Below are positions 1 through 4,931 of a DNA stretch of 64,000 nt, in pieces. Location of the stretch: assembly GCA_019689635.1 (NCBI GenBank), contig JADGHB010000006.1:1-64000 (forward strand). Reading direction: 5' to 3'. Within the stretch, counting starts at the first letter, position 1. Each line of letters begins with the position of its first letter. This stretch comes from Nevskia sp. (lineage in GTDB: Bacteria; Pseudomonadota; Gammaproteobacteria; Nevskiales; Nevskiaceae). A program made the position numbers and the translations under genes. The notes under the pieces are model-generated. The model was not told the origin of the DNA and searched no databases. It saw only the letters and a program-made list of their open reading frames with translations.

Positions 1-841
1 CGGCCGGTCGGGCCGCGCCCAGTCCTCCATTTCGAAGACGTCGGCGGCGTAGCCGCCGAGACGGCCGCGTTCGAGCGCTTCGAGCACCGCCGCTTCGTCC
101 ACCAGCGAACCGCGCGAAGGGTTGATGAGCAGGCAGCCGGGCTTGATGCGCGACAGCGCCCGCGCATCGATGACCTGCGTGGTCTGCGGCGTGAGCGGTG
201 CGGCCAGCACCAGGTAGTCGGCCCACTCCAGCAGCGCTTCCAGCGCGGCCACGCGCGTGAGTCCGAGCGCGCGCTCTTCGTGCGCCGCGAGCGCGACGGG
301 GTCGCAGTAGCGCTGCTGCACGCCGAAGGCTCGCAGCCGTTCGGCGACGGCGCGGCCGATCACGCCCATGCCGAAGTAACCCACGTTACGGCCGGCCAGC
401 CCCACGCCGTAGAAGCGCGGCTGCCAGCCGCGGAAACGACCCGAGCGCACCCAGCGGTCGCCGGCGAGCAGGTGCCGGCCGAGCCCGATCATCAGCGCGA
501 TGGTCAGCTCCGCCGTGGGCACGGTCAGCAGGTCCGGGACCAGGCTGAACCAGACGCCGCGCCGCGTGCAGGCCTCGAGATCGAAGTTGTCGGCACCCTT
601 GAGCGCGCCGGCGATGAGTTTCAGCCGCGGGCAGGCGGCCAGCAGTGCGGCGTCCGCCGCATCCGGCATGAACGCCATCCAAGGCGTCGGCTCGGGCCAG
701 CGCGCGGCGCAGGCGCGCCGGCGGCAGCGCCTCGCGGTCGCGCGGCGCCGTCACGCTGGCGTACGGTTCCAGCAGCGCCAGCGTGTCGTCGAACACACGG
801 TGGGAGATGACGACGCGCGGCTGCGTGGAACTCGAGTTCAT
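1..841 (-). pseudogene. ptxD: Phosphite dehydrogenase (NAD:phosphite oxidoreductase), 3' end outside window, frameshifted
   Basis: PtxD oxidises phosphite to phosphate with NAD+. The ATG at 841 overlaps the ptxC stop by 4 bases (ATGA). The first ~53 residues (RVVISHRVFDDTLALL) resemble the PtxD N-terminus. At 679-680 one extra G shifts the frame. From the ATG at 678 the second frame stays open for 226 codons to base 1 and continues the family: [22 protein letters not shown], the Rossmann motif GMGVIG, NPSRGS with the conserved Arg, and DVFEMEDW with the conserved Glu. The catalytic His lies beyond the window. The rest is intact, so this is either a very recent inactivation, a sequencing error, or re-initiation at the in-frame ATG 678. 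D-2-hydroxyacid dehydrogenase family membership is certain. The PtxD assignment also rests on the ptxABC-like transporter beside it. Confidence 0.8.
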
Positions 842-2223
842 GCCGGGATCTGGTTGAGTTTGTAACGCCGGCGCAGCGCCTCGCTCGCGTTGTCGACGAG
901 GGCCACGAGCACCCAGGTGATGAGGATGTAGGCCATCATCTGGCGGTAGAAGAACAGTTGCTGGGCGTCATAGAGCGCCTGTCCGATGCCGCCGGCGCCG
1001 ATCAGTCCCATGACGGTGGCCATGCGCAGATTCCACTCCAGGCGGAACAGCGAGTGCACCGCCACCGGTCCCAGCGCCAGCGGCACGGTCGCCCAGGCGG
1101 TGACGACGACGGCCGAGGCGCCGGTGCCGGCGATGGCCAGTTGCGGCGCACGCGGCGCGTTTTCCAGCGACTCGGCGAACAGGCGCGCCAGGCAGCCGGC
1201 CGAGTGCAGTCCCAGCGCCGCCGCGCCCGCGGTCGGCCCGACGCCGGCCACGGCGATTAAGATCAGCCCCCACACCACTTCCGGGATCGAACGCAGCACT
1301 TCCATCAGGCGCCGCAGCGGCCAGGCCAGCCACGGCGGCGCGAGATTGCGCGCCGTCAGCGCGCCGAACAACGCAGCGGCGAGCACGGCCCCGCCGGTGC
1401 CGGCCAGCGCCATCCATGCCGTCTCCCACAGCCGCGGCAGCAGCGCGGCCCAGTCGCGCTCGGTCAAGCGCGGCGGAAACATCTCGCCGAACACGTGCAG
1501 GGCATGGTCGAACGCCAGCAGTCGCGGCGCGTAGGCTGCGAGCGCGGCGAGGCCCAGCGGCGCCAGCGCCAGCAGCCAGCGCGGATGCCGGCGCAGCCAA
1601 ACGGCGAGCTGATCGAGCACGGCCACCACCGTTACCAGCACGATGAGCTGCGTGGTGACGCGCGGGAAATCCAGCGCCGCCAGCGATCCCACCAGCTCGC
1701 TGCCGAGTCCGCCGCCGCCCACCGCGCCGACCACGATGGACGCGCGCAGCGCGCTCTCGAATTCGTAGGCGCCGTAAGTGAGCAGATCCGCGCGCTTGAG
1801 CGGTAGCAGACCGAACAGCGCGAGCTGCAGGCGCCTGGCGCCGGTGGCGGCCAGCGCCTCCAGCGGTGGGCGGGGCGCAGTGCGCAGGATGTCGGCGAAC
1901 ATCTTGGCCACCACCGCGCCGTAGTAGATCGCCAGCGCCAGCAATCCGGCGCCGGGGCCGACGCCGAACAGGATCACGCACAGGATCGCGACCGTGAGAT
2001 CGGGAATGGCGCGCACCGCGGACAACACCGCCAGCAACGGTCGCGTGCCGGGCAGCCGCAGGCCCGCGGCGATCCCCAGCGGCAGGCTGATGAGGAACGC
2101 CAGAAACATCGACCCGGCGGCCAGCCCCAGCGTTTCCACCACCGGCGGTAGCAGGGCGCGCAGGTACGACGGCGTGAGGACCGGCGGAAAGAACGCGCTC
2201 AGCAGAGGCCAGAGCGAATCCAT
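838..2223 (-). CDS. ptxC: Phosphite/phosphonate ABC transporter permease, fused double PhnE domain
   Basis: Inner-membrane permease of an ABC importer for phosphite or a related reduced phosphorus compound. The 461-residue protein holds two binding-protein-dependent permease domains in tandem: roughly residues 1-210 (RAIPDLTVAILCVILFG, then VGAVGGGGLGSELVG) and 235-455 (RSIPEVVWGLILIAV, then GLIGAGGIGQALYD). Each has its own membrane helices and a G-rich EAA-type loop. PhnE/PtxC proteins are usually single-domain (~270 residues), so one chain here probably supplies both halves of the channel. It starts 12 bases after ptxA and overlaps ptxD by 4 bases, so translation with the dehydrogenase is likely coupled. 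Confidence 0.88.
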   Translation of the reverse strand: MDSLWPLLSAFFPPVLTPSYLRALLPPVVETLGLAAGSMFLAFLISLPLGIAAGLRLPGTRPLLAVLSAVRAIPDLTVAILCVILFGVGPGAGLLALAIYYGAVVAKMFADILRTAPRPPLEALAATGARRLQLALFGLLPLKRADLLTYGAYEFESALRASIVVGAVGGGGLGSELVGSLAALDFPRVTTQLIVLVTVVAVLDQLAVWLRRHPRWLLALAPLGLAALAAYAPRLLAFDHALHVFGEMFPPRLTERDWAALLPRLWETAWMALAGTGGAVLAAALFGALTARNLAPPWLAWPLRRLMEVLRSIPEVVWGLILIAVAGVGPTAGAAALGLHSAGCLARLFAESLENAPRAPQLAIAGTGASAVVVTAWATVPLALGPVAVHSLFRLEWNLRMATVMGLIGAGGIGQALYDAQQLFFYRQMMAYILITWVLVALVDNASEALRRRYKLNQIPA

Positions 2224-2235
2224 CGACGGCGTCGC

Positions 2236-3012
2236 TCAGGCGGTGAGCCGCAGAGGCTGCGCTGCGTGCACCGCGGCGCTGCCGGTGAGGGTGCCTTCGC
2301 GGACCTCGAGGACACGGTCGAAATAGCGCGTCGCGAGCTCCGGTTGATGCAGCGAGCAGATCAGCGCCATGCCCCGTCGTTTGGCCAGCGACGTCAGCAA
2401 TTCGAGGATCGCACGGGCGGTCACGGGGTCCAGCGAGGCCACCGGCTCGTCGGCCAGCAGCAGGCGCGGCGCCTGCACCAGTGCGCGGGCGATGGCCACG
2501 CGCTGTTGCTCGCCGCCCGACAAGGCCGCGGTCGGTGCGCGCAGCTTGTGCGCCAGACCCACGGCCTCAAGCGCACTGCGCGCCTCGGCCAGCTCGGCCG
2601 AGGTCGGCCGGCACAAGTAGCGCAGCGCGCGCAGCGTGCTCCAGCGGCCCAGCGCGCCGGCCATGACGTTCTGGTGCACGCGCAAGGGTTCGACGAGATC
2701 GTGTTTCTGAGCCACGAAGCCCACCCGGCTGCGCAGGCGGCGCAGCGCCTTGCCGCGCAATGCCGTGAGCCATTCACCGTCGAGCTCGATCGTGCCGGCG
2801 ACGGCGGCGATCTGTCCGCCGAGAGTGCGCAGCAGCGTGGTCTTGCCCGTGCCGCTGGCGCCCACCAGCGCCAGGCACTCGCCCGCACCGACGTCCAGCG
2901 CGATGTCGCGCAGCACGGGTTTGGCGGCACCCAGCGGTGCCACCGCCAGATCGCGCAGCGTCAGCAAGGACCGGCTTGCCGCGCGAACGGCGTCGCCGCG
3001 GGGCTCGATCAT
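2236..3012 (-). CDS. ptxA: Phosphite/phosphonate ABC transporter ATP-binding protein
   Basis: Cytoplasmic ATPase (258 residues) powering the ptx importer. It shows Walker A GASGTGKTTLL, the signature LSGGEQQRVAIARAL, Walker B LLLADEPVASLD and an H-loop SLHQPELA, the standard order of the PhnC/PtxA class. The ATG at 3012 overlaps the TAA of ptxB by one base (TAATG) and ptxC follows 12 bases downstream, so binding protein, ATPase, permease and dehydrogenase form one transcription unit. PhnC of phosphonate systems would look alike. The phosphite assignment comes from the ptxD-type gene at the end of the operon. Confidence 0.9.
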   Translation of the reverse strand: MIEPRGDAVRAASRSLLTLRDLAVAPLGAAKPVLRDIALDVGAGECLALVGASGTGKTTLLRTLGGQIAAVAGTIELDGEWLTALRGKALRRLRSRVGFVAQKHDLVEPLRVHQNVMAGALGRWSTLRALRYLCRPTSAELAEARSALEAVGLAHKLRAPTAALSGGEQQRVAIARALVQAPRLLLADEPVASLDPVTARAILELLTSLAKRRGMALICSLHQPELATRYFDRVLEVREGTLTGSAAVHAAQPLRLTA

Positions 3013-3863
3013 TACAGCAGCCCCAGTTCCTTGCCGACCTTGCGGACGTCGTCGTACTCGGCGTCGTCGGCTTTCACGTAATGCTCGCCGCGCAGGATCT
3101 CGAGGATCGCGTCATCGCGCCCGGGCTGCAGGCGCAGCAGCGCGGCCGAGAACTTCTCTTGCAGCGCCGGCGAGAGATCCTTGCGTGCCGCCCACACGTA
3201 GTCGGCGAACGGCGGCGTGGTGAAGAACACGCGCATCGACTCGCCGGGGATCTTGCCGTCGGCCACCATGGACTTGAAGACCGTTTCGTCCAGCGAGCCG
3301 GCGTCGCACACGCCCGCTGCCACAGCCTGCGCGGTCGCGGCGTGGCTGCCGGTGTAGCGCGTGGACTTGAGATCGGCATCCACGGAGATGCCGGCCTGCT
3401 TCATCGCCAGATACGGAAACAGGTGGCCGCTCGTGGAGTTGATGTCGCCGAAGCAGAACGTCTTGCCCTTGAGATCGGCGAGCGATTTGATGCCGGTGGC
3501 CTTGCGCGTGATGAACAGCGCTTGGAACTGTTGGTCCACGTCGCGCTGCACCAGCGGCACGGCGCCGTAGCGTTCGTGCGCCTTGACGTAGGTCAGGCCG
3601 CCGAAATACGCGATGTCCAGCGAGCCGTTGCCGAGCCCCTCGACGGTGGCGTTGTAGCTCGTGGGGATGACGAGCTTCACCGGCATGCCCATCTGCTGTT
3701 CGAGATATTTCTGCAGCGGCGCTTTCTGTTCCACGGACACCTGGGTGGCGCCGGCGTCGGGGATCATGCCCACGCGCAGCGGTTCGGCGGCTGCGGCGTT
3801 TTCGATGGTGAGCAAGAAACACAGGGCAGCGACCGCACGGGCGGCCGGGCTCGAGTTGAACAT
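3012..3863 (-). CDS. ptxB: Phosphite/phosphonate ABC transporter periplasmic substrate-binding protein
   Basis: Periplasmic receptor (283 residues) of the PhnD/PtxB family. The ATG at 3863 follows an AAGGAG at 3871-3876, and a signal peptide ending near AAAAEPLRV follows. An upstream in-frame start would add an unrelated Arg-rich extension and is rejected. Typical features are VGMIPDAGATQV at the mature N-terminus, VIPTSYNATVEGL, the segment AYFGGLTYVKAHERYG and the phosphate-pocket-type SGHLFPYLAMKQAG. It is the first gene of the ptxBACD unit. About 200 bases separate it from xthA, room for a regulated promoter. The ligand could be phosphite, hypophosphite or a phosphonate. Confidence 0.88.
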   Translation of the reverse strand: MFNSSPAARAVAALCFLLTIENAAAAEPLRVGMIPDAGATQVSVEQKAPLQKYLEQQMGMPVKLVIPTSYNATVEGLGNGSLDIAYFGGLTYVKAHERYGAVPLVQRDVDQQFQALFITRKATGIKSLADLKGKTFCFGDINSTSGHLFPYLAMKQAGISVDADLKSTRYTGSHAATAQAVAAGVCDAGSLDETVFKSMVADGKIPGESMRVFFTTPPFADYVWAARKDLSPALQEKFSAALLRLQPGRDDAILEILRGEHYVKADDAEYDDVRKVGKELGLL

Positions 3864-3998
3864 GGAAATACTCCTTCCGAAAGCGACCGGATGTCTGAGT
3901 GGCGTGACATTGCAGAACCGAATATCGCTCGTGCGTTCATCGCAAAAACGAATGGCCCGCACGCTAACGCGGCTGCATGACGCCCGGATGGCGCGCCG

Positions 3999-4016
3999 AT
4001 GAAATCCGGATGACAT
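3999..4016 (-). promoter_or_regulatory. Pho-box-like direct repeat upstream of ptxB
   Basis: Read on the minus strand the site is ATGTCAT-CCGG-ATTTCAT, two 7-mers separated by 4 bases. It matches the PhoB consensus CTGTCAT-N4-CTGTCAT at 11 of 14 positions. It lies about 135-150 bases before the ptxB start codon. Phosphite uptake operons are commonly phosphate-starvation controlled, so PhoB binding is plausible. I cannot place a convincing -10 element after it and the match was found by eye. Confidence 0.35.
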
Positions 4017-4062: not shown

Positions 4063-4860
4063 CTACGCCTCGCCGGTGCCGGACAGCGCGAACCGCGCGA
4101 TCACCGGGACGTGGTCCGACGGGCGGTCGGCACGGCGCGGCTCCACGTCGATGGTGCAGGCCGTGCAGCGGGAGGCTAGCGGGATCGAGGCCAGCACGTG
4201 GTCGATGCGCAGACCCATGCCGCGGCGGAACGCGGCCTGGCGATAGTCCCACCAGGTGTAACTTTTCTCCGGCTGCTCGAACTGCCGGAAACAATCCTTG
4301 AGGCCGAGCGCCAGCAGCGCGTGGAAACGTTGGCGTTCCTCCGTGCTGCACAGCACCCGCTCGCGCCACAGTTCGGGATCGTGCACGTCGCGGTCCTCGG
4401 GGGCGATGTTGTAGTCGCCGCCGGCGGCGAGCAGCGGATAGCGCGCCAGCTCGGTGCGCAAATACTCGCGCAGCGCGTCCAGGAAGCGCAGCTTGTAGGC
4501 GAATTTCTCGCTGCCCACCGCTTCGCCGTTGACGATGTAGAGGCTCAGCAGCCGCAGGGGACCGGCGGGCGTGTCCAGCGTGGCGGCGATGGCGCGCTTC
4601 TGCGCGTCGGGGAATCCGGGCAGATCGCGCACGACCTCGCGCAGCGGATGGCGTGCGACCAGCGCCACGCCGTTGTAGGTCTTCTGGCCGTTGTGCACGG
4701 CGTGATAGCCTGCGGCGGCGAAAGCCGCGAAGGGAAAGACCTCGTCGGCGAGCTTGGTTTCCTGGAGCATCAGCACGTCCACCGGCTGGCGCTTGAGCCA
4801 CTCCAGCACCTGCGGCAGGCGCACTTTCAACGAATTGACGTTCCAGGTGGCGATTTTCAT
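4063..4860 (-). CDS. xthA: Exodeoxyribonuclease III
   Basis: AP endonuclease and 3'-5' exonuclease of the ExoIII/APE1 family (265 residues), acting in base excision repair. The start MKIATWNVNSLKVRL at 4860 is the classical N-terminus and an upstream extension is not family-like. Catalytic motifs appear in order: LMLQETKL (metal-binding Glu), GGDYNIAPED (Asp/Asn pair) and the C-terminal RPSDHVPVIARF (Asp-His). Length and motif spacing are normal. It is transcribed away from the DUF488 gene at 4932 with about 70 bases between them. The bacterial XthA subtype, as opposed to ExoA, is inferred from overall similarity. Confidence 0.93.
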   Translation of the reverse strand: MKIATWNVNSLKVRLPQVLEWLKRQPVDVLMLQETKLADEVFPFAAFAAAGYHAVHNGQKTYNGVALVARHPLREVVRDLPGFPDAQKRAIAATLDTPAGPLRLLSLYIVNGEAVGSEKFAYKLRFLDALREYLRTELARYPLLAAGGDYNIAPEDRDVHDPELWRERVLCSTEERQRFHALLALGLKDCFRQFEQPEKSYTWWDYRQAAFRRGMGLRIDHVLASIPLASRCTACTIDVEPRRADRPSDHVPVIARFALSGTGEA

Positions 4861-4931
4861 CGCGGGCCGATTCCAGGCGCGGGCCGATGCGCGATAATGA
4901 CATCCTACGAGCTTCGCCGACAGGAGCACAC

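Follow-up and report, generated by a model that had tools for sequence, protein, structure and literature searches.

Phosphite dehydrogenase (PtxD) is a member of the D-2-hydroxyacid dehydrogenase superfamily with several solved structures (4e5k, 4e5n, 4ebf and 6ih2). Arg237 and Glu266 are characteristic residues of the enzyme. So are Lys76, His292 and Arg301 (PMC12676663, PMC3909101). Among the described operons, that of plasmid pBVIE02 from Burkholderia vietnamiensis G4 shares about 70% DNA identity with our query over 70% of the query and carries, in this order, genes for a binding protein, an ATPase, a permease (1383 nucleotides), PtxD and a LysR regulator, with ptxD in one frame and an annotated integrase catalytic region between ptxD and the LysR gene. 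In plasmid pPA942-IMP45 and in plasmids of Azonexus and Skermanella, the LysR gene is annotated directly after ptxD and the ATPase gene comes first, before that of the binding protein. A Klebsiella plasmid (MN956836.1, positions 141289-147965) has most of its ptx genes annotated in pieces, ptxD in two; this piecewise annotation is apparently sequence noise.

The stretch of DNA that we analysed, hereafter the window, comprises 64,000 nucleotides from the genome of a Nevskia sp. (assembly GCA_019689635.1, contig JADGHB010000006.1, positions 1 to 64,000 of the forward strand), and its first features are collected in Table 1. What the locus holds is a phosphite-use operon of the ordinary kind, made up of genes for a binding protein, an ATPase, a fused permease, PtxD and a LysR regulator; the permease gene of pBVIE02 is similar in length to the fused one here. 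As in pBVIE02, the binding protein precedes the ATPase, and as in the other three plasmids the regulator gene follows ptxD directly. The ptxA, ptxB, ptxC and LysR genes are all open. The true start of the binding protein may be at 3863 instead of 4016. The ATG of ptxD at 841-839 overlaps the permease stop at 840-838 as ATGA (841-838), which supports position 841 as the start of ptxD. The gene differs from those of the solved PtxDs in that it is cut into two frames by a single base and has its 3' end on a different contig.

Table 1. Features at the ptx locus, with positions in the window and supporting evidence
Feature	Position	Strand	Evidence
Exact overlap with C33 17416-17475	1..60	.	base-for-base identity
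ptxD body, second frame, 226 codons, runs off contig end	1..678	-	matches PtxD residues 50-274
Frame-change interval, shift of one base	679..683	-	codon-usage model and codon scores
ptxD N-terminus, first frame, 54 codons	680..841	-	open reading frame and 45 aligned residues, 51% identity to closest relative L025
Phosphite/phosphonate ABC permease, 461 aa, ptxC-like, two PhnE-like domains fused	838..2223	-	TIGR01097, 350.7 bits, 2 stretches
ABC ATP-binding protein, ptxA/phnC-like	2236..3012	-	TIGR02315, 205.7 bits, below curated cut-off of 266.1
Periplasmic substrate-binding protein, ptxB/phnD-like	3012..4016	-	PF12974 Phosphonate-bd, 225.9 bits
Exodeoxyribonuclease III-like gene (xth), upstream of ptx operon	4063..4929	-	

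The identity of the gene is clear from its larger part, the body encoded by the second frame, whose first methionine aligns with PtxD residue 50 (4e5k, residues 50-274, E 1.3e-86). Phosphite or phosphonate dehydrogenases fill the first 14 places among the PDB sequences (E from 1e-86 to 3e-83) and the next family follows at 9e-42, so that the body is more like the solved PtxDs than like other 2-hydroxyacid dehydrogenases. It is about 60% identical to the annotated PtxD of a Pseudomonas aeruginosa plasmid, and 53-67% identical, in the best segment, to the products of 79 relative loci retained when the best 80 of 258 candidates were kept. Lys27, Arg189 and Glu218 of the body, at the positions of PtxD Lys76, Arg237 and Glu266, are invariant in our alignment (A1). 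By eye, a histidine and an arginine are found at the positions of His292 and Arg301 in the reading frame on C33, a second contig of the same genome, so that all five residues are present across the window and C33. The preliminary description of the locus had claimed that all conserved motifs are intact in the second frame; this is true of the part in the window, but His292 and Arg301 correspond to positions past base 1, outside the window.

The one-base frame break in ptxD is confirmed as present in the sequence as given. The coordinates first described are right. On the minus strand, 54 codons from ATG 841 and 226 codons from ATG 678 encode two parts of one PtxD, offset by one base, and the frame of ATG 678 is free of stops down to base 1; the chance that this frame alone would be stop-free is about 0.01 at the local GC content. 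The gene thus lacks one continuous frame from N- to C-terminus: the unshifted frame from ATG 841 continues into 97 further codons of non-PtxD sequence and stops at 388-386 (codon 152). A model of codon usage, trained on this genome (74 long frames), switched, unprompted, from the first to the second ptxD frame at 680. The codon scores of the two frames trade places between about 700 and 656, and the codon pattern is strong on either side of the junction. The shift had been ascribed to a surplus G in the GG at 679-680; the size of the shift stands, but the exact base does not, because several choices within about 679-683 are equivalent.

The break is peculiar to this sequence. It is absent from all 85 relatives compared, in each of which the N-terminus and the body share one open frame across the site. 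These relatives comprise L005, L024, the 79 retained loci and L104-L107 (51 distinct sequences), the 79 being the closest of the confirmed candidates rather than all of them; they include the Klebsiella plasmid with its ptx genes in pieces, whose frame runs unbroken across the corresponding site. Nor does the break reflect a genome full of frame errors, a possibility that we rejected because a scan covering 239,210 bases of this genome (the window and 20 further stretches) met 69 junctions between coding segments and flagged just 2 of them; given 200 simulated insertions of one base, it called 180. Besides the ptxD site, it flagged L111:9286, where the junction coincides with a start codon and a stop follows 75 bases on; from its sequence, this looks like two genes with an ordinary 75-base overlap. 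At the remaining tips sampled, the scan found no convincing frame break. By our own arithmetic roughly 6% of the bases are no more than 700 bases away from a tip (the sample contains about 20 tips), and we regard it as mildly suggestive that the only good candidate for a frame break is located near one.

Base 1 of the window is the end of its contig (C64) and falls within ptxD; the 3' end of the gene and an overlapping, ptxE-like LysR gene are found at the end of C33. Over the last 110 bases of C33 (17416-17525), an exact 60-base match to the window is followed by 50 bases of which only 31 agree with window positions 61-110 in an ungapped comparison, and this read-like tail lacks the conserved NPxRGSxVDE stretch. 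Since three other tips (the right end of C64 and the left ends of C33 and C11) have exact overlaps of 97-99 bases, the break in ptxD differs in kind from the other joins. These three and the two sides of the ptxD break are among eight tips of four contigs that we compared; one further tip, the left end of C54, shares a short repeat with another contig, and no tip overlap was found at the right ends of C54 and C11. With a contig ending inside the gene and the tail of C33 degraded, the assembly is poor in ptxD itself, and we infer that the break is a dead end from poor coverage rather than a repeat branch. A second copy of ptxD as the cause of the break is not supported: four matches are listed for the genome, namely this locus, the end of C33 and two others, which at 38% and 30% identity we take for other 2-hydroxyacid dehydrogenases.

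A junction between C54 and C69 was considered as a second degraded join and rejected, as the two contigs have in common just a short repeat (C54 32-99), with flanks that differ on both sides. This 68-base repeat has a palindromic stretch and occurs exactly in C54:32-99 and C69:32954-33021 (in L111 and L158, respectively). Weaker matches to it are present on C75, C63 and C24, and it is perhaps a member of an interspersed repeat family.

The wider setting of the operon bears on whether the two contigs belong together. Beyond the LysR gene, C33 carries a fragment encoding a second 3' end of xth (L004 377-439; counterpart in the window 4063-4131), with an exact 22-base direct repeat between this fragment and window positions 4131-4110. 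The local alignment of the two xth ends scores 53, whereas 200 shuffles reached at most 31. Behind the fragment lies a frame of 345 codons. In 12 of 15 relatives from the genus, its counterpart comes immediately after xth and on the same strand; in the remaining three it was not found within 1.5 kb of xth. (The 15 are those of 17 other genus genomes that have a close xth match.) Among the matches listed for these 17 genomes there is no ptxD-like match above 41% identity, and among the matches listed for 60 relatives searched, one genome alone (G050, from another family of the same order) has a ptxD-like match, at 58%. From the second xth end and the flanking gene order in genus relatives, it appears that the ptx operon is an insertion next to the 3' end of xth and that C64 and C33 are probably neighbours on the chromosome. 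Their apparent adjacency also argues that the two pieces of ptxD belong to one gene.

From these observations, we lean slightly, as the best explanation of the frame break, towards an intact ptxD whose sequence contains a local error from the reads or the assembly. The assembly breaks in ptxD itself, 679 bases from the offset, the rest of the operon is undamaged, and frame breaks are otherwise rare in this genome. Several of our observations weaken this reading: 679 bases is beyond the length of a usual short read, the tip of the window is clean wherever it can be compared (60 bases), the degraded tail of C33 holds substitutions rather than insertions or deletions, and the other tips in the sample are without a convincing frame break. 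Of the three options that the preliminary description had offered, assembly error has thus gained support, from the contig break and the degraded tail, and there is little support for a second start at ATG 678.

The remaining option, a pseudogene, survives as a real and recent one-base mutation that would have inactivated ptxD, in this strain or in a fraction of a mixed population, and would be too young for further decay. We consider this a serious contender, with somewhat less than an even chance of being correct. Short-read assemblies, if this is one, seldom create false insertions or deletions, as is generally known. The distance of the offset from the tip and the clean overlap on the window side, which weaken the case for an error, speak for a mutation; so does the origin of the operon, which looks horizontally acquired, accessory genes being often lost. 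A mixed population could, we infer, also account for the assembly break at ptxD. On the other side, the operon is otherwise intact and there is no second lesion in either the 226 codons of the body or the 54 of the N-terminus. The estimates of dN and dS against L025 (0.263 and 0.936 for the body, 0.237 and 0.95 for the intact permease) are close to one another, and they count against old decay only; dS is high throughout and roughly estimated, and the values for the binding protein are unusable (implausible dS, partial alignment). An old pseudogene was rejected on the lack of a second lesion, the strong codon periodicity, and dN and dS values like those of the intact neighbour.

Readings in which the sequence is used as written fare much worse. 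Internal initiation at ATG 678, which would yield a shorter functional protein with or without a separate 54-codon N-terminal peptide, is improbable. An ATG is indeed present at the junction with 226 open codons after it, but it encodes a conserved residue inside the protein (83 of the 85 relatives have Met there and 2 have Val), and the restart product would lack the first 49 residues of PtxD; on these two grounds we consider a restart unlikely. In addition, no obvious purine-rich stretch or ribosome-binding site precedes this ATG by eye, and every one of the 85 relatives has an N-terminus in frame upstream of its position. It is a shade less probable again that the sequence is correct and the gene working, whether by a restart at Met50 plus a separate 54-residue peptide or by a ribosomal shift; such a gene would represent a two-piece or recoded phosphite dehydrogenase. 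Among the matches listed, literature on frameshifts in ptxD or phosphite dehydrogenase consisted of reviews touching on marker genes. Programmed ribosomal frameshifting to join the two frames is the least probable reading of all, since, although the frames meet exactly at a codon boundary of the PtxD family, the arrangement is conserved in none of the 85 relatives and no stop lies near the shift site in the unshifted frame, and no known shift signal was recognised at the junction by eye.

Most likely, then, the frame break is no novelty, being an error in the sequence or a mutation of very recent date. If it is an error, as we slightly prefer to believe, poor local data would have introduced the one-base offset into ptxD, and the living gene would encode a normal full-length PtxD, predicted to oxidise phosphite to phosphate with NAD. 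The break would then matter for annotation only, in that phosphite oxidation would be wrongly scored as absent from the genome, and C64 and C33 could be placed as neighbours. If the mutation is real, it would represent the recent loss, in one strain, of an accessory phosphorus-scavenging enzyme.
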